From positions 1-22,976 of IMG/VR virus record IMGVR_UViG_3300027996_000178: 22,976 nucleotides of DNA. One strand, 5' to 3'. Numbering within the stretch: position 1 is the stretch's first letter; each line of letters opens with the position of its first letter. Below are positions 7,033 through 22,976 of the stretch, one piece after another. Under the pieces are notes generated by a model. That model was not told the DNA's origin. It saw nothing but the letters and a program-made list of their open reading frames with translations, and did not search any database. This DNA comes from a virus. Position numbers and translations under genes: made by a program.

Positions 7033-10000
7033 ATGGACGTTCAGAGCCTAACCCGGCTCAACAGAGGTGTTCTGACAGCGGGTGTCTCTCTCGACGAGCT
7101 CGGTCTTTCTCAGCGTCAGGTCGCTGGGGCACTGCAATCAGGCATGATTGACGCTGAGGGGTTTGGGCAGTCGCTCCGTGAGATGCGGCAAAACCTCGGG
7201 ATGTCGGGCGAAGATATCGGCTCTTTGCTCGACGAGTTCACAGCCCTCGGTGAGAGCGTAGGCGAGGGTGAGGCGTTTGTGCGTGGGGTGCCGACGCTTC
7301 TCGAGGGCATCCGTGAAGGCGTCGCTGAGTTCCCGGCTCTTCGGAACAACTCAAGACAGCTTCTCACTTCATTGGGGCGTCTCGCGCGTGGGATGCAACA
7401 GGTCAGTGGTTCGACGCCAGAGGAAGCTCTCGGAGCTACAAACCAAGTTTTCCAGACGCTCTTGGGCTCGAGGCGCAACCTCCGTGACCTCTTCTCGGGC
7501 ATGGGGAGCGACTTTGACGACCTCGCAACGCAACTCGGCATCGGTGGTGCTGGTGTCGGCGGTGCGCTCGAGATGATCCTTTCTGATCCAGCGACCTTCG
7601 CGGTGCGTGCCGCAGAGCTCTTCGAACAGTCTGGAGGCGCTGGCACTGTGATGGGTGACCGTCTCACGTCGGTGCTTTCACGCATGGGGCCTTCCTTCGT
7701 TCGTCTCGTCGATGGTTCAGAGGAGTCGACTGCGGCGCTTGCGGTGATGCGTCAGGAGATGGGTGACACTGAGGGGGCTTTCGGGCGGATGGCGCAGAGC
7801 GCTTCTGGGTCGACGCGAACCTTCTCTGGGAACATGGAGCGGCTCCGAGACAACTTCAACGAGCACCTCAATCAGATGCCACGTCTCGCGAGTGGGCGTC
7901 GGTTTGACACAGAGGTGTTGCGGCAACAGGCGCGGGCTTATCGAACTCTTGGGCGTCGCGTGGACGCTGCGACGGCGAGGACTGACGGGTTTGGGGTAGC
8001 GGCTCGATTGCTGAGGGGAACCAGGCGGGGCGGTCTCGTAGGACTCTCAGTCGTGATTCAGGATGAACTCGGGCAACGCTTCCCAGAGCTTCGTAGACAG
8101 ATCGGAGAGACGCTCCCTGTTTTGGGTGAGTTTGGTGGCGCAGCATTCGAGGGTGCGCAGCAGATTGCTCCGTTGCTCGTAGGGATGAGGGCGCTCAAAA
8201 TTGAGATACCGGGTCTTGGTGGAGCGATGCGTCTCCTCTTCAACCCGATCACGCTCATCGCCGGCGGGCTCTACCTTCTCATCCGCTACTGGGATCGTAT
8301 CGAGCCAATGCTTGAAGTTGGCGCGAGAGCTTTCCGTGATTGGTCACGCTCAGCACTCGAGAGCGTGAGGGAGATCGACTGGCAGAGTCTCGGTAGGGAC
8401 ATTGTTGACGGCGTTCTCATGGCCTTCGGCACCGTCGCGGATATGGAAGGCTCGAACGAGACCTCGAGAGCTTTCGCAGAAGGTCTCCGCAACGTCTTCT
8501 TGGCGGCCGGCACGATGGTCCGTGGCATGGCTTCTGGTATCTGGGATCGTGTTGTTGAGTGGATCATGGAACCCGAGGGCGGGTGGGGTCGATTTAGGCG
8601 AGGCGGCGCGGTGGCTGGTGTTGCTCTTGCGGCTGTGATGTTCACGCCGATGCGTGGGCCGCTCGTTGCAGGTGCGGGGCGCATGTTCATGTGGCTCGGT
8701 GGTCGCATGGTTGCGATGATGGCTGCTCGAGGCGTGCTCGGGTCGGCGATCCTACGAGGAGGAGGAGCGGCGGGTCGAGGTGTCGGTAGTCTTCTCGGTC
8801 GCATGATCGGTATCCCCACGGGGCAAGCCATTGCCTCGAGCGTGCAGGCGTCGATCAGTGGTACGGCGACGGGGGCGGCGACCAGGGGTGCAGGTGGTCT
8901 CTTCGGGCGCATTGGATCTTCGCTCGCTGGCGTCTTCGGTCGAGGCGGGGCTCGTGCCGTATCTGGGATGGCGTTGCGTACTGCGGTCAGGGGTATCCCT
9001 GTCGTCGGGGCTATCCTTGGAGTGCTCTTCGACCTTCCGCAGATCCTTCAGTCATTCAGGACAGACGGTATCACCGGCGGTATCACTCAGCTTCTCGATT
9101 CAGTCATCAACGGGGTGCTCCTCGGCTTGCCTCGTCTTCTCGAGCGCTTCACTGGCTTCGACATCATCGACACGCTCTTCGAATACATGGGCTTCAACCG
9201 AATGATGGCGGCGTGGAGCTCTGGCAGTTGGAGCACTATTCTCACCGAAGGTCTGTGGAACCTGTTTTCTGCGGTGTTTGGGAACATCCCGAACATCATT
9301 CGAGCAGCGGTCGAGGACATCACAGGCACCGACGTTCTCGGAGACATGCTCGGCAACATCGGCGAGATGATCACTGAGGGGTGGGACGTCGCTGTCGCTG
9401 TCGCCGATGTTCTTTGGGACACCTTTCGTGAGCTCGCTTCAATCCTCGCTGACGTGTTGCAGCCATTGTGGGAAGCAATGAGTCTTGCGTTCCGTGAGCT
9501 TCAGGCGGTGGGTGCTGATGTGTGGGGCGAGCTCAGAGACGTCATGCGTGATGTCTTCACTGAGGTTCAGGCGGCGTTCACCGACGTCATTGGTCTCATC
9601 CAAGAAACGGTATTCCCGATCATCGAGGATCTCGGAGAGCTCTTCATGGGGGTGTGGACCGACTACATCCAGCCGGCATTTTCGGAGGCGGGACGCTTCA
9701 TCTATCGCGTGCTCATCCAACAGGTGCTCCCTGCTGGACGTCGCCTGTTCCGTGGCCTCGGACGTCTCGTGATGTGGTGGTGGGAGAACGTGACGAGCCC
9801 GGTGCTCGAGACTCTCGGTAGAACCTTCCTCCGCGTGATGAATTTCATGCGCGAAACTGGGTTCCGTGTCATCGGGGCCATTGCGCGGTTCATGGTCGAG
9901 CAGTTCTTCGATGCCATGGCGGCTATCGCTTCGATTCGGGCGAATTGGGAGGGCATGGTCAACACCATGCAAGCCACGAGCAACGCGGTGCAGGTCATTA

Positions 10001-11028
10001 TCAGGAATTCCTTGGTGTCGCCGCTGCTCGAGGCAGAGGACGCCATCATGACGATTTCTGAGCGCATCGAGGAGGTCTTCGCGGGGCTGCGTCTCGTCGT
10101 AGTCAACCTCGTGCGATCCCTCGTTACTCAACTTCGTGATGCTGTGGTGTCGATGGGTCCAGTCGGTGCTCTCCTCGCGGGGCCGCTCAACGATGCGGTG
10201 ACGCAGATGGATGCTGCCTTCAACAGAGAACAGGCGGTGATCGCTGAACTCCACAGAACAAACCGTATCGACTCCAATGCGCGTAGAGACGCTCGCAATG
10301 AGCGTGCGCGTGAGAGCCGAGAGGCGCTGTTGGCGGCTGTCAATGCTCGGTCGGCGCATGTCGTTGGGGTTGCTGATGCGGAAGCCGGGGTCAGGAGGGC
10401 TGAGGCTGACTTCCTTAGTGGAATGTCAGGAGTCGGTGAGCGTGTAGCTATCTCACTCGAGACAGCATCGTCGCGACTTCAAGATATCTTCTCGCCAGAG
10501 GGCAGAGCTCGACTACGGGCGGCGAGAGGCGAGCGAGCGGCTGCGGCTGAGGCTGGTAGGCAAGAGGCATTCGAGTCGGTGTTGGAGTCGGTGTCGTCTT
10601 CGAGGAACCTCTCGAGGCGAGAGCGGAGAGTGCTTGCGGGTGCTCTCACTACAGCGGCAGAGCAGGGGCGCTCCATCGACGCTGCGGACATGACACGAAG
10701 GCTCCAAGCGATTCGGGGGAGAGGAGCAGTGCGGACTGAGGCGATCAGCGGTGTCATGCGAGGTTTGGGCGTCGAACCCGAGGAGGCTGCGGCACCAGCC
10801 GCAAGTGAGGGACCGGCGCGTCGTCGGGGCCGTACTCGAGCGGCTCACGCGAATCGTCAGCAAGTACGAGAGCAGCAAGAGCAGACTGAGATGCAAGCCC
10901 TTGCGGGCGAGCTCGTGATTGCCAGCTTCGGCGAGCAGGCTATGAGGCAACTTGCACAGGTCTTCACCATCGAGGTGCAGGGGGCTGGCTTGATTCAGCC
11001 GTTGCCCCTGGACGGGCAGGGGCAATAG
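7033..11028 (+). CDS. Tail tape measure protein (main part)
   Basis: 1331 residues, by far the longest frame, between the chaperone and the baseplate genes: the standard place of the tape measure protein, which sets tail length and is ejected with DNA. With the upstream part it makes 1466 codons; at about 1.5 angstrom per residue (known rule) this predicts a tail near 220 nm. Numbering from ATG 6628, hydrophobic segments lie near 533-555 (LLFNPITLIAGGLYLLIRYW), 661-711 (VAGVALAAVMF ... MVAMMAARGVLGSAIL) and 788-808 (PVVGAILGVLF). Long helices rich in Trp/Val/Glu follow (DVLQPLWEAMSLAFRELQAV), and the C-terminal 300 residues are Ala/Arg/Glu coiled coil. ATG 7033 lacks a ribosome site. No peptidase domain or lysozyme motif was seen. 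Confidence 0.8.
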   Translation: MDVQSLTRLNRGVLTAGVSLDELGLSQRQVAGALQSGMIDAEGFGQSLREMRQNLGMSGEDIGSLLDEFTALGESVGEGEAFVRGVPTLLEGIREGVAEFPALRNNSRQLLTSLGRLARGMQQVSGSTPEEALGATNQVFQTLLGSRRNLRDLFSGMGSDFDDLATQLGIGGAGVGGALEMILSDPATFAVRAAELFEQSGGAGTVMGDRLTSVLSRMGPSFVRLVDGSEESTAALAVMRQEMGDTEGAFGRMAQSASGSTRTFSGNMERLRDNFNEHLNQMPRLASGRRFDTEVLRQQARAYRTLGRRVDAATARTDGFGVAARLLRGTRRGGLVGLSVVIQDELGQRFPELRRQIGETLPVLGEFGGAAFEGAQQIAPLLVGMRALKIEIPGLGGAMRLLFNPITLIAGGLYLLIRYWDRIEPMLEVGARAFRDWSRSALESVREIDWQSLGRDIVDGVLMAFGTVADMEGSNETSRAFAEGLRNVFLAAGTMVRGMASGIWDRVVEWIMEPEGGWGRFRRGGAVAGVALAAVMFTPMRGPLVAGAGRMFMWLGGRMVAMMAARGVLGSAILRGGGAAGRGVGSLLGRMIGIPTGQAIASSVQASISGTATGAATRGAGGLFGRIGSSLAGVFGRGGARAVSGMALRTAVRGIPVVGAILGVLFDLPQILQSFRTDGITGGITQLLDSVINGVLLGLPRLLERFTGFDIIDTLFEYMGFNRMMAAWSSGSWSTILTEGLWNLFSAVFGNIPNIIRAAVEDITGTDVLGDMLGNIGEMITEGWDVAVAVADVLWDTFRELASILADVLQPLWEAMSLAFRELQAVGADVWGELRDVMRDVFTEVQAAFTDVIGLIQETVFPIIEDLGELFMGVWTDYIQPAFSEAGRFIYRVLIQQVLPAGRRLFRGLGRLVMWWWENVTSPVLETLGRTFLRVMNFMRETGFRVIGAIARFMVEQFFDAMAAIASIRANWEGMVNTMQATSNAVQVIIRNSLVSPLLEAEDAIMTISERIEEVFAGLRLVVVNLVRSLVTQLRDAVVSMGPVGALLAGPLNDAVTQMDAAFNREQAVIAELHRTNRIDSNARRDARNERARESREALLAAVNARSAHVVGVADAEAGVRRAEADFLSGMSGVGERVAISLETASSRLQDIFSPEGRARLRAARGERAAAAEAGRQEAFESVLESVSSSRNLSRRERRVLAGALTTAAEQGRSIDAADMTRRLQAIRGRGAVRTEAISGVMRGLGVEPEEAAAPAASEGPARRRGRTRAAHANRQQVREQQEQTEMQALAGELVIASFGEQAMRQLAQVFTIEVQGAGLIQPLPLDGQGQ

Positions 11029-11030
11029 GG

Positions 11031-11366
11031 ATGGCAGAAGCCAATATCAATGTTCGAAGCACCTCGTGGTTGCAGTTCTCTCGTCTTCTGAACATCGACG
11101 GTGTGACGTGTTGGGAGATGCCAGAGTTCCCTGATATCCAACCCGCTGACGACGATGTCATCTACACTGTTGCGCGAACCGACCGTATTGACGTGCTCGC
11201 GGAGCGCTACCTCGGGTCGCCTGAGCTTTGGTGGATGATTGCCGTGCTCAACGACTTCGATATCTTGCCGAACGACCTCTATTCCAATCAGACGATTCGC
11301 ATCATGACGCGGAACAGGTCTTCGGATATCAGGAGGCAGGCAGCGCTTCGACGGGAAGGCAGGTAG
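11031..11366 (+). CDS. Baseplate wedge protein, gp53-like (LysM-type fold)
   Basis: A 111-residue protein beginning two bases after the tape measure stop. The central motif VLAERYLGSPELWWMIAVLN followed by D..LPNDLYSNQTIRI is the signature of T4 gp53-like wedge proteins and related LysM-fold baseplate proteins ('lA..yyGd..lWw.I...N......l..G..l.IP'). These proteins link the wedge to the hub and often follow the tape measure. The N-terminus (VRSTSWLQFSRLLNIDGVTC, then WEMPEFPDI) also fits the family, where a residue pair equivalent to 'wd.p..p.i' begins the domain. Length fits a short gp53. The C-terminal 20 residues are basic (RNRSSDIRRQAALRREGR). Confidence 0.75.
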   Translation: MAEANINVRSTSWLQFSRLLNIDGVTCWEMPEFPDIQPADDDVIYTVARTDRIDVLAERYLGSPELWWMIAVLNDFDILPNDLYSNQTIRIMTRNRSSDIRRQAALRREGR

Positions 11367-11368
11367 GA

Positions 11369-12769
11369 GTGCCTGTCATCGATCCATCGGGCTTCCATAT
11401 CTCAGCCCAACTCGTGACCTCTCGAGGCGTGTTCCCCTTGCGGGTGGGCGGGGCTCAACAAGGAGGTCAGAGCTTCTTCACTGGTGAGAGTGGGCAAGAC
11501 ATGCTCGACCTCCCTGTCGTCGAGCGTGCGAATATCGAGCTCAACTTCGGTATGGGCGGGAATATCTCTGTGGACGTCTACGCGCCTTTCGAGATCTCGA
11601 AGGCGATCCTGAATTCAGAGCTCTTCAGAATCGGAAATCTTCTTCAGGTGCAGATCGGCTATCCCGCTTCGGGGGCATTCTTGCCATGGTTCTCGGGGAT
11701 GACGACGCCGCCGTCGTTTCGCATCGACCCGTCACAGGGTCTCACGGCGACGATCACAGCGGTGAATGGGGCGTTCACAGCGGTGCGCAACTCGAACCCT
11801 GCGGTGTGGGAGGGAAGCTCCTACGCTGACATCGTCACTGATATCGCGTCTCGGCCTTACAACAACTGGCGCGTCGAGCTCCCAGAGCAGACGAGAACGG
11901 GGTCTGTGCCCAACCGAAACGACCCGCTCTATCGAGAGCGCGGTAGCATTTCGCAGTCGAATCGGGCGGATTGGCCTTTCCTCTACCACCTTTGTCGCAC
12001 TGCATCGTGCGAATTGGTGCTGCTCTACACCAACGACCAAGAGTCGAGGCCGACGCTTCAGGTGCGCCGACGGAGCGACATGCTTAGTGGTGAGCCGGTC
12101 TACACGTTCGTCATGTGGGGACAGGTCGACTTCATCAACCGCTTCCCCCTGTTCAACTTCGAGACATCTGGTGAAGGCGTGTGGATGCCGCGAGGCAACG
12201 CTCCCGTGCGATACGGTGATTGGAACCCTGACACCCAAGAGGAGATCGCTGGTGTCGTCACCCAGGAGGACCGCACACTTGCCCGTATAGACCGACTTCT
12301 CGAGGAGACGCTTGGTAGTGGCGTCACCGATGAGGCACTGGGCACGGAGATAACGCTCTCTGCTCTCGCCGACGTGGGGATCTTCCTTCCAGCCAGGGGC
12401 GCGGAGAGCGGCTACGATGCGGCTGAGGGTGCGGCACAGGAGGCCGACGAGGACTCTGGTCGAGGTGGCATCAACGCGAGTTTCTCATCCATCGGACTTC
12501 CATTCGTCTATCCAGGTGACCTCGTTCGCATCTTGGGCGTGGGGGATTTCTTCGACGGGAACTATCTTGTGGAGGGCATCACGCACGAGGCGAGTGCTGG
12601 TGAGTGGACCATGAACTTCAAGTGCCTGACGAATGCACCAGGCGGGAGAGGGGCTATCGCTCAGCGTCTCGTGCAGACATGGTCCAACCCGAACAGGCAA
12701 GAAGCACCTGAGCACGACGAGCCAAGTAGTGGCGTGGCTACCGACCGAGTACCAGAGGGCACCGAGTAA
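11369..12769 (+). CDS. Baseplate hub protein, gpD/gp27-like (late control D family)
   Basis: The start is GTG 11369, two bases after the previous stop (TAGGAGTG); an upstream in-frame region overlaps gp53 and is rejected. The 466-residue protein has a beta-rich N-terminal domain (ANIELNFGMGGNISVDVYAP), and GNLLQVQIGYPASGAFLPWF with 'FSGMTTPPSF...TITAVNGAF', which is the tube-like beta-barrel pattern of gpD/gp27 hubs. The C-terminal domain ends with PGDLVRILGVGDFFDGNYLV and H-E-A repeats (EGITHEASAGEWTMNFKC), the typical last strands of late control D proteins. An acidic Ala/Glu-rich linker lies around residues 340-370. The hub trimer attaches the spike encoded next. The last codons overlap the spike start (TAATG). 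Confidence 0.75.
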   Translation: MPVIDPSGFHISAQLVTSRGVFPLRVGGAQQGGQSFFTGESGQDMLDLPVVERANIELNFGMGGNISVDVYAPFEISKAILNSELFRIGNLLQVQIGYPASGAFLPWFSGMTTPPSFRIDPSQGLTATITAVNGAFTAVRNSNPAVWEGSSYADIVTDIASRPYNNWRVELPEQTRTGSVPNRNDPLYRERGSISQSNRADWPFLYHLCRTASCELVLLYTNDQESRPTLQVRRRSDMLSGEPVYTFVMWGQVDFINRFPLFNFETSGEGVWMPRGNAPVRYGDWNPDTQEEIAGVVTQEDRTLARIDRLLEETLGSGVTDEALGTEITLSALADVGIFLPARGAESGYDAAEGAAQEADEDSGRGGINASFSSIGLPFVYPGDLVRILGVGDFFDGNYLVEGITHEASAGEWTMNFKCLTNAPGGRGAIAQRLVQTWSNPNRQEAPEHDEPSSGVATDRVPEGTE

Positions 12770-17175: not shown

Positions 17176-19890
17176 ATGTCGCAACAGACCCCACGGATGC
17201 AGGCTCCCTACCCTTCAAGAGAAACAGATCCCTGGTATGACGATTTCGTCGACTACGTCAACAGCGCTGACGCCTCGGGCTACGCGGCTCGAGAAGACAG
17301 GCACCTCATTCTCATGGACGGCGGAACCGTCGCGTGGGACCTCGCCACTGAGACGCTCTCGTGGACTGAGGACATTCTCGTGCTCTCAGGCATCGTGGGG
17401 CGCTCTTGGATCGTCAATGCTGGGTCTATCGTGCTCTCGGCTGCCAATGGCGTCATTTTCTATTCTGAGATCAATCGAGCTCCAGGCGAGAACACGGCGA
17501 TTGCGGCTCTCGCGGCGAACACACTCACAGCGGTGGCTGGCAACAACGCCCTCGCCATCGCAGTGCGCCACGACGACATCATCTACTTCCGCACTGGGAT
17601 CAGCCTGGCAGATGGTGACTCTTCTGAAGGTGTCGCACCTCCACCAAGCGGGGCTGCGCTAGAGATCGACAACGATGGCACTCCTGTAGACACAGAGACC
17701 GTCAAGATCGACTTCACTGGTACTGGGGTCACGGCTTCTCAGACTGCTGTCGGGGAAGTCGAGGTGAGCATCCCGTCAGTCTTCGAGGCCGATGCCGTAA
17801 ATAACGAGATCCAGCCCATTACGACGGAGATTGGTAGGAGCTTCATTGTCGGCTCTCAGGCCATGGATGAATCCGGGGTGGCGAACGATTCTCGGATGTT
17901 CTTCGACAAGGCCACAGGAGCGTTCAGGGCTGGCACTGTCACTGGCGCGGAGTGGGATGCCGCGAGTCGTGGAGCAAATTCGTCGGCCTTCGGAGACAGG
18001 ACCACTGCGTCTGGTGCTGCGTCACATGCCGAGGGCAGAGACACGCTGGCGAGTGGAGATTACTCCCACGCTGAAGGTCAAGATACGGCAGCTAGCGATA
18101 ATTGTGATCATGCTGAGGGGCGTTCTTCGGCGGCGAGCGGTGGATACTCACACGCCGAGGGCTACTCGACTCAGGCGACTGGGGCTTACTCCCACGCGGA
18201 GGGCATGGATAATGTCGCTGCCGCAAGTGCCTCTCACGTTGAAGGCGATACAAATAGCATTCATGCCGATGCTCAGTTTTCTCATGCTGAGGGGTACTAC
18301 AACAGTATCGGGGGCTATGGGTGGGCCGCTCATGTTGAGGGTTACTATGGCTTAGCGGTCGACGTTTGCGATCATGTCGAAGGTTGCTTCTGCGAAGCTA
18401 ATTGCGGGAACGGCGGGTACGATTGGTACTACGGCGGCGGTGCCCATGCTGAGGGGCATAGCACAACGGCGCAAGGGTATGGAGCGCACTCAGAGGGGTA
18501 CAGCACTTTCGCCGATGATGACGGGGCGCACGCTGAAGGGCGCTATACTACAGCAAGTGGAAGGGGGTCACACGCCGAGGGCTACGTCACCTTAGCTGAT
18601 GGCGACTATTCTCACGCTGAGGGTGATGGAGCTACAGCAAGTGGAAGGGGGTCACACGCCGAGGGCGAGGATACATTAGCTGAAGAGGATTATTCCCACG
18701 CCGAAGGCATCGACTCTCGCGCACACGTCATTGGCTCACATGCGGCAAGCGGCGGTGTCATTTCACAGGCATTGGATGCTCAATACCTCCGGGCGAACCT
18801 GACGAGGCTGATCGACGATACGCTGTCGTGGGAGCCCTTGACCATAGGTGGTGGAACTCCTGACATCGGGACCGATGGTGACGCGAACATACTCCTGATG
18901 CCGACGAACCATTCGTGGGCAGCGGACATCACCGTGACTGCGAGGGATGCGAAAACCAGCGATGGTGGCGGAGAAACAGGGGATACAGCGACATTCTTTT
19001 TCAAGGTGGCAGCTAAGAACACACCAGCCGAGGATGCTTTAGCGACCAACATTCTCAGCATGGGCTCGAATCCGAATCACAATGAATATATCCAGATTCG
19101 CAATAAAGGGCTGTCTGTTCCTGGGTTGGAATCGTTTACATACAGATGGTACTCGACGCTCGCTTATCCAACCGCTGGTCGGGTACTTATTGATTCGTCG
19201 TCACTTTCAGGGACACTGGACAATCTTGTAGCGGCTGTCACTAAGGGGCCTGGAGCGGGGAAGGTCGGAAGTTTCACGCTGTCGGGCAGCACGATCACTC
19301 TTGTCGCCTCTGAGGGAACTTTCGATCCTTCAATGAACGGCAAGACGATCAATATTTACTACGCGCCATCCACCGGGAACAATGGGGCGTACACCATGAC
19401 CTACGTCGACTCGACGACGGTCACATATACAAACGCTGGTGGGGCGACCGAGGCAGGTGCGGCCAACACTGTGTGGAGTGTGCTGTATGGGGCTCTCACC
19501 CGCGAGTGGGACACGAGCACGCTATTCACCGCTGTCGCTGGGGTTGGCAACACGGTGGACTTCACCGCTGTCCCTCTGGGGACAGAGGGGAACTTGATCT
19601 ACACCGCAGAGGGCATGGCTGCTGCACTCAACAAGTGGCTCAACACTTCAAGATATTTCGAGGGAGGCGGCGACATTGGGCTTGTCGGTGGGTCGTCACC
19701 GTGGCCGTGGGCGCAGTCTTTCAAGGATTCTGGTGCGTCGGCATGGGATTGCCGCGTTGTGCTTGGTTCATCTCATGGGAACGCATTTGATATCGAATGC
19801 TTGGGGGATAGTAGTAGGTACACGGTGTGGGAAGCAACTGTGCATCTCACTGAGGTTGGTACAGTCGCGTGGATACCGACAATTGCGTAG
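17176..19890 (+). CDS. Tail fibre with YadA-like SHAEG head repeats (904 aa)
   Basis: GGGAGACGGAAG gives the ribosome site. Residues 1-155 are the typical phage fibre attachment domain (PYPSRETDPWYDDFVDYVNS, RHLILMDGGTVAWDLATETL, then DDIIYFRTGISL). A linker (LEIDNDGTPVDTETVKI, 'FTGTGVTAS') leads to residues about 283-525, a run of roughly 14-residue repeats with the core SHAEG, like the head repeats of trimeric autotransporter adhesins, so a trimeric left-handed beta-roll stalk is expected. One unit is expanded and Cys/Tyr-rich (CDHVEGCFCEANCG). Residues 530-904 form globular beta domains that end with VHLTEVGTVAWIPTIA, likely the receptor-binding end. No peptidase S74 chaperone is seen. Confidence 0.75.
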   Translation: MSQQTPRMQAPYPSRETDPWYDDFVDYVNSADASGYAAREDRHLILMDGGTVAWDLATETLSWTEDILVLSGIVGRSWIVNAGSIVLSAANGVIFYSEINRAPGENTAIAALAANTLTAVAGNNALAIAVRHDDIIYFRTGISLADGDSSEGVAPPPSGAALEIDNDGTPVDTETVKIDFTGTGVTASQTAVGEVEVSIPSVFEADAVNNEIQPITTEIGRSFIVGSQAMDESGVANDSRMFFDKATGAFRAGTVTGAEWDAASRGANSSAFGDRTTASGAASHAEGRDTLASGDYSHAEGQDTAASDNCDHAEGRSSAASGGYSHAEGYSTQATGAYSHAEGMDNVAAASASHVEGDTNSIHADAQFSHAEGYYNSIGGYGWAAHVEGYYGLAVDVCDHVEGCFCEANCGNGGYDWYYGGGAHAEGHSTTAQGYGAHSEGYSTFADDDGAHAEGRYTTASGRGSHAEGYVTLADGDYSHAEGDGATASGRGSHAEGEDTLAEEDYSHAEGIDSRAHVIGSHAASGGVISQALDAQYLRANLTRLIDDTLSWEPLTIGGGTPDIGTDGDANILLMPTNHSWAADITVTARDAKTSDGGGETGDTATFFFKVAAKNTPAEDALATNILSMGSNPNHNEYIQIRNKGLSVPGLESFTYRWYSTLAYPTAGRVLIDSSSLSGTLDNLVAAVTKGPGAGKVGSFTLSGSTITLVASEGTFDPSMNGKTINIYYAPSTGNNGAYTMTYVDSTTVTYTNAGGATEAGAANTVWSVLYGALTREWDTSTLFTAVAGVGNTVDFTAVPLGTEGNLIYTAEGMAAALNKWLNTSRYFEGGGDIGLVGGSSPWPWAQSFKDSGASAWDCRVVLGSSHGNAFDIECLGDSSRYTVWEATVHLTEVGTVAWIPTIA
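18022..18750 (+). repeat. SHAEG head-repeat array in the fibre gene
   Basis: About sixteen units of mostly 42 bases (14 codons) encode S/D-H-A/V-E-G cores, from SHAEGRDT to SHAASGG. Two units are nearly identical at DNA level: 18548-18582 and 18632-18666 match for 35 bases, exactly 84 bases (two units) apart, showing a recent duplication. Confidence 0.8.
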
Positions 19891-19902
19891 GAGATGGTTG
19901 GA

Positions 19903-20190
19903 ATGGCGATGACAGAAGAGCAAGGTTCGGCAGTCCTGTCCCGTATTTCTGACGGGGAGAGTGTGAAATCCATATTGAGGAGCTTGACTGTTTCAAGGTC
20001 AGATTTTTCGACATGGCGGCGAGAGAACCTATTCGCATTTCGGGCTGCAATGAAGGCTGGAAAGCCTGCCAAGTCTTCGCTCACAAGGAGTCAGAAGTTG
20101 AAGAAACTTCGGATGAATAAGGCCAGGGCTCAGGAGCGGTTGAGTGGGATCGATATGAAGATCGCTGAAGTCGAAGCAGAGGACGAATAA
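19903..20190 (+). CDS. Small helix-turn-helix-like protein (95 aa)
   Basis: I chose ATG 19903 because AGGAG (19889-19893) lies 9 bases before it; ATG 19894 touches that ribosome site. Residues about 10-50 (SRISDGESVKSILRSLTVSR, SDFSTWRRENLFAFRAAMKA) follow the helix-turn-helix pattern 'I..G.S...i....vs.s.f..W......f...y..a' known from terminase small subunits and small DNA-binding phage proteins. The last 40 residues (TRSQKLKKLRMNKARAQERL) are a basic coiled coil with an acidic end. A DNA-binding protein inside a receptor-binding cluster is out of place for a terminase; a regulator or assembly helper is possible. It overlaps the sulfotransferase start (TAATG). Confidence 0.5.
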   Translation: MAMTEEQGSAVLSRISDGESVKSILRSLTVSRSDFSTWRRENLFAFRAAMKAGKPAKSSLTRSQKLKKLRMNKARAQERLSGIDMKIAEVEAEDE

Positions 20191-21023
20191 TGCGGAAACT
20201 TTGCTTTCTCTGTGGAACTCCCAGGAGTGGCTCGACATTGCTTGCGAACTTGCTGGCGCAGAATCAAGAGGTCTACGCCACAGCCACAAGCGGTCTGCTT
20301 GATACGCTACGGGCTGTCAGAGACGTGTGCGATCAGAACACTTTCTATAAAGCCATGGCTTCGGAGGAGCGGAAGGAGACAAAGCTCTCGCTTTTGCGCG
20401 GGGTGACCAACGGATATTTCGCACACCAAGAGGGCAAGGTGTGCTTCGACAAGAGTCGGGGGTGGCCTACATCTTTCGAGTTGGCGTCCTGGGTGCTTGG
20501 AGGTCGTGAGAGAGTCAAGGCCATTGTGTGCGTCCGTGACACTCGTGACGTGCTTGCGTCCTTCGAGAAACTCTACAGGGCCACCGCAGAGGTATCAGCG
20601 ACGACGCAGGAGCGGGCTGCTTTCGTCGAGCATCGGACTGCCGAGGGGCGAGCGAAATTCATCCTTCGGCCTGATGAGCCTTTTGGCTACGCCATGGACG
20701 TCGTCCGAGATGCTGTGACGCGGGGGTGGCGCGATAACATGCTGTTTGTTGAGTATGACGCGCTTTGTCGAGACCCGAACGGTACGGTGAAGAGCATCTA
20801 CAGTTTCATCGGCGAGAAGCCATTCGAGCACGATCCGACACACGTCGATCAAGTGACTGTGGAGAATGATGAGGTGTTTGGCTTCGTCGGGCTTCATGAC
20901 ATCCGGCCAGAGATCAAGCCCCAAGAACCGCAGTGGCCTCTGGTTTACGACGGAGCGATGACGGGGACTGAGTTCTGGTCTCGTGTGACAGAGGGTGCTC
21001 GCTATTGGGAGCACATGAGGTAG
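20190..21023 (+). CDS. PAPS-dependent sulfotransferase
   Basis: A 277-residue enzyme, the usual size of a cytosolic sulfotransferase. Residues 9-22 (GTPRSGSTLLANLL) are the 5'-phosphosulfate binding loop and residues 114-128 (CVRDTRDVLASFEKL) carry the 3'-phosphate site (Arg116, Ser124). YDALCRDPNGTVKSIYSFIG near the C-terminus is the typical 'yEdL..dP......i..FlG' motif. It should move sulfate from PAPS to a hydroxyl or amino group, probably of a sugar or a tyrosine. No signal peptide, so it acts in the cytoplasm. Overlapping the small upstream gene and followed by a tailspike and a glycosyltransferase, it may sulfate fibre glycans or host surface sugars; the acceptor is unknown. Confidence 0.8.
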   Translation: MRKLCFLCGTPRSGSTLLANLLAQNQEVYATATSGLLDTLRAVRDVCDQNTFYKAMASEERKETKLSLLRGVTNGYFAHQEGKVCFDKSRGWPTSFELASWVLGGRERVKAIVCVRDTRDVLASFEKLYRATAEVSATTQERAAFVEHRTAEGRAKFILRPDEPFGYAMDVVRDAVTRGWRDNMLFVEYDALCRDPNGTVKSIYSFIGEKPFEHDPTHVDQVTVENDEVFGFVGLHDIRPEIKPQEPQWPLVYDGAMTGTEFWSRVTEGARYWEHMR

Positions 21024-21027
21024 GAGG
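21022..21027 (+). promoter_or_regulatory. Consensus Shine-Dalgarno for a GTG start
   Basis: AGGAGG overlaps the sulfotransferase stop and stands 6 bases before GTG 21034, the best ribosome site of the window, fixing this GTG as the start of the tailspike gene. Confidence 0.65.
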
Positions 21028-21033
21028 AAACTC

Positions 21034-22251
21034 GTGACTGAGCAAGTTGTAGGGGCAAGCTCCCCACCCGCGAACCCCCGACTCAACGATTCCTACTTTG
21101 ATGATGGGACGAACACTGGGACTGGAAACCCTGGATGGCGCTTCTGGAATGGCTCGGCGTGGGCTGACAGTGGTGGTGGGGGGAGTTCCTCTGATCGGCA
21201 TACTGCTACGATCATTGTCGGGAACAGTCTCGATGGTGACAGTTTGGTGAACTGCCACTACCTGGACGTCGGCAATGGTGTGCAACTTCAGCTTGCCTTG
21301 AATGTGGGAGCGGATGTGTACATTCGCCCCGGAACCTACAATCTGCAATCAGGGGCTCAGGTTCCATTGACGGTTGCCGCTGGGGTGCGTGTGCGGGGTG
21401 CGGGGCACAAGAAGACGATCATTAGCACAGCGGTCTCCGGGGGTGGCGCCGACGATCAAAGGGCATTCAACCTCACCAATGCCGACGTCACATTGGAGGA
21501 TATTGGGGTCTATTGCCCAATCCCTACTGGGGCTTTCATTGGAGCCGCTGGGGCTGTTGTGCATGTGGCCGCTGCGGGGTGTACCGTTCAGCGGGTAGTG
21601 GTGAGTTTCGAGAGTGGTTGGGTGGGAATATACAGCGCCGCTTATCCCAAGATAAACGCTGCCTTTGGGGCGTATTCTGTAACGGACGTGCGCTTTATAG
21701 ATTGCAGATCGATCCTCACCCCACAGGTGGGACGGTTGGGCGGGGCTCTGTTTTACGGGTGTTTCCTCAGTGGCGTTTCGAGACTGGCTACCATTCGAGG
21801 GATGTACATCGAGAATGCGGATAGGGGGCTGTACGCCACCGCTTCTCAATTCTCGGTACACCAGCTTGAACTGAACGGGTTCCATTCTAGGGCGGCAGAG
21901 CTACTCGCGGCCTCACGCGGGGAGATTGTTGGGGGGCGGTTCTATCCTTCGAGTTACGCCCTCACTGCTCGACGTGGAGTGGACGTCTCGGCGTCGGATG
22001 ACTGTGTACTGGATGATCTGTACATAGCGGGACGGGCGGCGTCGGATGCCGCCATCGTGCTGATCAACTCTGATCGTGCTGTCGTCAAGGGGTGTCGAGG
22101 GGACGGCAACTGGGACAGCGGTAGCGGCACCTATGGCGAGTTTTTGCATCTGGATGCGTCTTGCGTGGATTGCATCGTGATCGCCAATCAATCGAATGGT
22201 GATGGGTACACCGATCTGGGCACCAATACCGATCTGGCTCACAATCACTAG
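21034..22251 (+). CDS. Tailspike/fibre with right-handed beta-helix (405 aa)
   Basis: GTG start with an ideal ribosome site. Residues 1-45 (SSPPANPRLNDSYFDDGTNT, NPGWRFWNGSAWADSGGG) are a short phage adaptor motif seen at fibre N-termini. Residues 70-390 have the rhythm of a right-handed parallel beta-helix of the pectate-lyase-like class: VYIRPGTYNL, VRVRGAGHKKTIIST, ADVTLEDIGVYC, CTVQRVVVSF, and repeated short strands such as AVVKGCRGDGNW and CIVIANQSNGDGY, ending in LAHNH. In phages this fold usually binds or cuts surface polysaccharide. Catalytic residues cannot be assigned. It lies between the sulfotransferase and the glycosyltransferase, so the four host-interaction genes form one transcription unit. 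Confidence 0.7.
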   Translation: MTEQVVGASSPPANPRLNDSYFDDGTNTGTGNPGWRFWNGSAWADSGGGGSSSDRHTATIIVGNSLDGDSLVNCHYLDVGNGVQLQLALNVGADVYIRPGTYNLQSGAQVPLTVAAGVRVRGAGHKKTIISTAVSGGGADDQRAFNLTNADVTLEDIGVYCPIPTGAFIGAAGAVVHVAAAGCTVQRVVVSFESGWVGIYSAAYPKINAAFGAYSVTDVRFIDCRSILTPQVGRLGGALFYGCFLSGVSRLATIRGMYIENADRGLYATASQFSVHQLELNGFHSRAAELLAASRGEIVGGRFYPSSYALTARRGVDVSASDDCVLDDLYIAGRAASDAAIVLINSDRAVVKGCRGDGNWDSGSGTYGEFLHLDASCVDCIVIANQSNGDGYTDLGTNTDLAHNH

Positions 22252-22256
22252 GGGCG

Positions 22257-22976
22257 ATGATGAACCCGAAGGTTTCGATAATTTTGCAATGTGGCGGCGA
22301 GGATTATCTCAGCCGGATGGAAGTCTGTCTTCGGGCTCTTGACCTTCAGGATTACCAGGGTGAGACGGAGCGCATCTTGACCTATGTGGTCGGGTTGGAC
22401 GATCCAATCCCAGAGGAGCGTCTGAAGGCTCTCAACGTGGACACGCTCCTCATTCGACGTCATGTCTTGGCGGCGTACCCGACTGCTTGGGCAAAGAACG
22501 TGGGGATTCGGCAATCGACGGGAGAGGTGATCCTGAATCTTGACGGGGACGTCTTGCTACGACGCGACATGCTGCGGCGATTGGTGCTCTCAGCGCAGGA
22601 CGGCAATCTGGCGTGGTGCAAGGTGCGTGCTCTGGATGCCCCGATGGACGACTACGACCTCACTGACGATATGTTTCGACGAGCTATGCAGCAATCGCAC
22701 ATGACCCACTGGCCTTGTGCGTTTGTGTCGGCGGTTCCGCGTGAGGCTGTGTTTGCCATCCGTGGGTGGGATGAGAGGTACATTGGGTATGGGAGTGAGG
22801 ATCAGGACTACCACGACCGGCTGATTCGCCACGGGCTCCGTGAGCAGGTCTTCGAGGCCCATGGTCCCGTAGCGAATGTGATTCACCAGTGGCACGAGCG
22901 CACCCGTCTCGATGACGAGGATGCTATGCGGGTCCGCAACCGGCTCATCTTGGAGAGGAGCACCGCAGATGACGTG
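22257..22976 (+). CDS. Glycosyltransferase, GT-A / galactosyltransferase C-domain type (partial)
   Basis: 240 codons are visible and the frame is open at the window end, so the C-terminus is missing. ATG 22257 follows GGGGCG and lies five bases after the tailspike stop; ATG 22260 is an alternative. MMNPKVSIILQCGG opens a Rossmann GT-A fold. AWAKNVGIRQSTGEVILNLD leads to D96-G97-D98, the DxD metal and nucleotide-sugar site. GWDERYIGYGSEDQDYHDRL (residues 170-189) is the Glyco_transf_7C motif of galactosyl- and GalNAc-type transferases and chondroitin-type polymerases, followed by H210 and H213 (HQWHER) as further metal ligands. It should transfer a sugar from a nucleotide sugar; the acceptor is unknown. 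Confidence 0.8.
   Translation, partial: MMNPKVSIILQCGGEDYLSRMEVCLRALDLQDYQGETERILTYVVGLDDPIPEERLKALNVDTLLIRRHVLAAYPTAWAKNVGIRQSTGEVILNLDGDVLLRRDMLRRLVLSAQDGNLAWCKVRALDAPMDDYDLTDDMFRRAMQQSHMTHWPCAFVSAVPREAVFAIRGWDERYIGYGSEDQDYHDRLIRHGLREQVFEAHGPVANVIHQWHERTRLDDEDAMRVRNRLILERSTADDV

Follow-up and report, generated by a model that had tools for sequence, protein, structure and literature searches.

Sulfotransferases (STs) are common in environmental phage contigs, with relatives encoded in at least 581 viral stretches in our ST-profile scan, and their function in phages is stated as unclear in PMC10580990. Here we report that the ST gene lies directly behind a fibre-like gene in close to half of the loci scored, a non-random association with adhesins for which no earlier report was found in the open-licence literature. 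This placement suggests that phages may chemically modify the very proteins by which they attach to the host, and makes that idea directly testable.

The window, by which we mean the whole stretch of DNA analysed, is an entire viral record of 22,976 bases. In PHROG scans it contains tape measure, baseplate wedge and baseplate hub-like genes, and so covers the tail and baseplate genes of a phage resembling myoviruses. Five genes at its right end lie on one strand in tight succession, with overlaps or short gaps between them:

17176..19890, + strand: tail fibre, with an N-terminal adaptor of about 150 aa common to relatives, followed by 16 SHAEG-type repeats
19894..20190, + strand: small helix-turn-helix-like protein of 98 aa, overlapping the ST start codon (TAATG)
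20190..21023, + strand: predicted PAPS-dependent sulfotransferase (ST), 277 aa, identified by Pfam, PHROG, motifs, predicted structure and a homologue in the related contig L009
21034..22251, + strand: right-handed beta-helix adhesin or tailspike-like protein, 405 aa, identified by predicted structure and homology to relatives' fibres
22257..22976, + strand: GT-A glycosyltransferase (Glyco_transf_7C / Glyco_tranf_2_2), identified by Pfam and motifs and cut by the contig end

Ten bases separate the ST from the tailspike gene, and five separate the tailspike gene from the glycosyltransferase. This packing on one strand bears out the preliminary description, which had placed the ST in a tail adhesin operon; it had also named the ST, tailspike and glycosyltransferase after the SHAEG fibre correctly, while making no mention of the 98-aa gene that separates the fibre from the ST.

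Two Pfam models recognize the ST above their cut-offs, Sulfotransfer_1 (6.3e-14; 52.4 bits, cut-off 22) and Sulfotransfer_3 (1.6e-12), and it matches phrog_27463 at 2e-39. The 5'-PSB P-loop-like motif PRSGST is present as GTPRSGSTLL, and in an alignment of 36 viral sequences its residues G9, P11, R12, G14 and T16 are invariant, as are R116 and S124 of the 3'-phosphate-binding R...S motif and R90, W92 and H236. The predicted structure (pLDDT 91.8) has a sulfotransferase fold, whose best solved matches in Foldseek are human TPST2-PAP complexes (E 3.3e-8, TM about 0.5), followed by polyketide and heparan sulfate sulfotransferases. These motifs and the modelled fold place the ST in the PAPS-dependent sulfotransferase superfamily; it would transfer a sulfuryl group from PAPS. 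By reading, neither the ST nor the glycosyltransferase has an evident signal peptide and both begin directly in the catalytic fold, supporting the earlier proposal that both enzymes are cytoplasmic.

Phage STs themselves are already known. The STs of the cyanophage or marine phages S-SKS1, S-SCSM1 and S-SRM01 (phrog_27463) belong to the same family at 26-28% identity, and the S-SCSM1 protein matches the window ST model in fold (E 7.7e-16); the S-SCSM1 gene, however, sits among endonuclease and late sigma-factor genes, whereas the window ST lies between fibre and tailspike. Rhizobial NoeE-type STs, which act on Nod factor sugars, are matched weakly in their P-loop region (1.5e-6; 27 bits, where the family cut-off is 500).

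To ask how general the siting is, we scored 57 non-redundant viral ST loci, drawn from the best 80 of the at least 581 stretches plus annotated phages. Genes were called fibre-like by composition rather than homology, with thresholds of our own choosing (length of at least 250, GSTN at least 32%, KRED at most 20%). The gene directly upstream of the ST was fibre-like in 25 of 53 loci (47%), compared with 16% for all other genes and, likewise, 16% (42/260) for non-fibre genes of similar size from those loci. Against these similar-sized genes the odds ratio is 4.6 (p 3.8e-6), with 24 cases observed and 7.3 expected by locus; the loci are metagenomic fragments for which no per-record completeness is given, and their lineages are partly non-independent. 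Downstream of the ST no excess was seen (5/53). Of the 17 ST clusters formed at 50% identity that could be scored, 9 include at least one ST right behind a fibre-like gene, and in L038, L042 and L043 YadA/SHAEG-like repeat fibres directly precede the ST; in the window, fibre and ST are parted by the 98-aa gene. Some homologues do lie away from fibres, in S-SCSM1 and the L062-like lineage, but homologues are not always far from fibre genes, as they would have to be to contradict the preliminary description. Two ST-bearing records hold further genes of the kind: L027 has two ST-family genes in close succession (9974-10777 and 11156-11929), and L046 carries at 11514-12308, on the opposite strand, a second sulfotransferase-like gene outside the main family (GNPRSGTTALATCL).

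Conservation of the ST was followed in 14 related viral contigs found by a baseplate search, several of them short fragments. Among these 15 records, the window included, only the window and L009 have the ST family, and L009 repeats the window's order of fibre, small gene and ST. The two STs share 79% aa identity (dN 0.155, dS 1.36, omega 0.11), and their omega is the lowest among the stretches compared between the two records; the baseplate wedge (54% identity, omega 0.29) and the fibre adaptor (54%, omega 0.26) have diverged further at similar dS. Such ratios place the ST under purifying selection while its neighbours change. Recent transfer of the ST between window and L009 is not favoured, since its dS lies near the 1.55-1.72 of the other genes. 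A single-protein scan with the window ST did not recover L009; a two-sequence ST scan returned only L009 among viral contigs and no match in bacterial genomes, an outcome due to the narrowness of the search patterns no less than to rarity.

The proteins around the ST have changed more. The fibre has 16 H[AVS]EG repeats, mostly at 14-residue spacing, and the 98-aa protein, with weak HTH_Tnp_1 and terminase-small-subunit matches, has a homologue in L009 (14935-15219; 37% identity over 91 aa). The tailspike falls under the Pfam Beta_helix cut-off (22.1 vs 25.9 bits), so that Pfam alone does not carry the call and structure is needed. In structure comparison its model (mean pLDDT 74.7) resembles tailspikes of phages and adhesins of the beta-helix type, with beta-helix proteins including CBA120 TSP2 at E 6e-5 to 1e-3, and the Sf6 tailspike at 2.7e-3. 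By this model it has a right-handed beta-helix fold; a phage tailspike of this class would also have endoglycosidase activity on host glycan. The beta-helix is homologous (30-36%) to the C-termini of relatives' tail fibres, namely those of L019, L008 and L011, with a shorter match to that of L014. Because the fibres that carry it in relatives have the same N-terminal adaptor as the window's SHAEG fibre, adhesin modules are shuffled at this site. The L009 protein after the ST is unlike the window tailspike except for a shared N-terminus of about 52 residues, NPRxNDxYxDDGTNTGxGxPGW... (window 21034-21189, L009 16066-16227), which holds a tyrosine in an acidic context.

Tyrosine sulfation deserves separate consideration. 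Protein-tyrosine sulfotransferases come first in the profile search of the ST family (2.1e-12), and TPST1/TPST2 are the closest solved relatives of the window ST by profile as well as by fold, with PAPS-binding loops that align. A Glu in the GEET motif is the catalytic residue of TPST; the motif aligns with an a-s-a-T-S stretch of the phage profile, so that T/S stands in place of the Glu. Since phage STs do not conserve this residue, we do not file the ST as a TPST, and the phage enzyme differs from TPST1/TPST2 also in that no membrane anchor is seen. Tyrosines in acidic context are not enriched in fibres near STs (2.07% vs 1.98%), a result that lends no support to TPST-like tyrosine sulfation as a general feature of such fibres. 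A single conserved motif, ND[ST]Y[FL]DDGT, is present in the proteins that follow the ST in the window and L009.

The glycosyltransferase was seen over 240 aa, its C-terminus being lost at the open contig end. Glyco_transf_7C (6.9e-8) and Glyco_tranf_2_2 (2.2e-7) both match above cut-off and DGD and GWDE/GSEDQD motifs are readable, which marks it as a GT-A glycosyltransferase akin to Glyco_transf_7C/GT2; the profile searches proposed at the outset, for Sulfotransfer and Glyco_transf_7C, thus both gave matches above cut-off. No Glyco_transf_7C match was found in L009 or the other baseplate relatives searched, and neither the phage and plasmid collections nor the viral scan gave a match to the protein. 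In L009 the ST stands at the same position with no such glycosyltransferase. The module of ST, tailspike and glycosyltransferase first envisaged is therefore not a conserved one: of the co-occurrence suggested for relatives, the ST next to fibres was found and the glycosyltransferase was not, and the conserved unit is ST plus adhesin rather than the trio. In a set of ST-bearing phages PF02709 was matched in 4 of 50 records, one above cut-off, and a GT2 match above cut-off occurred somewhere in 13 of 50; several of those records have GT2 matches, above cut-off or weaker, 2-4 kb from the ST. At 2778-3533 of L046, about 6.5 kb from its ST, lies a glycosyltransferase weakly similar to that of the window (phmmer 5.5e-6).

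STs that stand behind adhesins in many phages, are strongly constrained and are sometimes accompanied by an APS-kinase-like gene are most simply read as sulfating the adhesin or a glycan on it. We tentatively favour, at a little short of an even chance, the view that the ST is a late-expressed companion of the tail adhesin genes. We infer its catalysis, timing, target and benefit as follows. The enzyme would be produced late, together with the fibres, in the cytoplasm of the infected cell, and would draw PAPS from the host. Sulfate would pass to the new fibre or tailspike directly, or to a sugar added there by a glycosyltransferase, and the negative charge gained might adjust binding to the receptor or give the adhesin a shield. 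If phages do sulfate their receptor-binding machinery, this would add a new form of virion modification, with a bearing on adsorption and on how hosts are recognised. That this is a widespread and hitherto undescribed phage strategy, in which dedicated STs, joined in some lineages by an APS-kinase-like PAPS supplier and by glycosyltransferases, sulfate the phage's own fibres (protein or glycan) during virion maturation, is a possibility we hold more loosely. A partial parallel is the glycosylation of mycobacteriophage virion structural subunits (Freeman 2023, as cited in PMC12619734), which likewise puts a phage-borne glycan on the virion; there the capsid and tail tube are the targets, and the portion of PMC12619734 that describes the system mentions no sulfation.

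The main rival places the sulfate on surface or secreted glycans of the host, where the ST, perhaps with glycosyltransferases, would stop progeny or other phages from adsorbing again, or would free progeny from released receptor. Modification of host glycans by phages is well established, and one marine lineage has sugar-transferase-like genes at its ST loci (L062, L066, L076, L081, L087, L097), several with a PF00535 match no more than about 3 kb from the ST; in S-SRM01 the ST stands beside a glycosyltransferase and a nucleotide-sugar epimerase. However, a position directly after fibres in a tail operon would suit late expression and leave little time for remodelling the surface, and no membrane or export gene was recognised beside the ST in the window or L009. 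We consider this role less likely, though a serious possibility.

Fibre regions are insertion hotspots, and the ST could be auxiliary metabolic cargo that gathers in such a zone of turnover and acts on small molecules. Phage STs are indeed listed in papers as auxiliary metabolic genes. Yet similar-sized genes in the same loci stand behind fibres far less often (16% against 47% above), and the ST is retained under strong constraint between distant relatives whose neighbouring genes diverge, so we regard a passenger role as rather doubtful. Modification of phage DNA bases, for which phage nucleotide glycosylation and sulfation systems cited in PMC10829341 offer a precedent, is very improbable, given that PHROG scans recognised no DNA-modification gene in the window, that the ST lies inside a tail module and that the solved enzymes nearest to it have protein tyrosine, polyketides or heparan sulfate as their targets.

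If adhesins are sulfated, a supply of PAPS may in some phages be encoded beside the ST. In genes adjoining the ST, the APS kinase, Kelch and RCC1 beta-propeller families rank with the most frequent Pfam matches; the families shown for genes six positions off do not include them. Of the 46 ST-bearing records searched, 9 have an APS-kinase-family match, whereas the four baseplate relatives with no ST in the same 50-record search have none. Seven of the nine genes lie within 3 kb of the ST on the same strand, against 1.3 expected by record length (p 1.5e-5), several of the seven coming from related lineages; in L031 and L088 the gene overlaps or abuts the ST. Most of the matches are partial, and three such ST neighbours that were scanned fall under the NCBIfam cut-offs; L065 has a full-length match, 10.6 kb from its ST on the other strand. 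Judged by sequence, phage-made PAPS is plausible in L031 and L065 and unproven in the other records with such genes. At 9176-10768 of L031 a fibre, a small nucleotidyltransferase-like gene, an APS kinase-like gene (TIGR00455 1.6e-18) and the ST follow one another, possibly a compact cassette for sulfate activation and transfer. Genes in L058 (13587-14390) and L088 (10819-11646) join an APS-kinase-like N-terminal half to a nucleotidyltransferase-like C-terminal half, and these proteins, with weak scores, could be PAPS-synthase-like.
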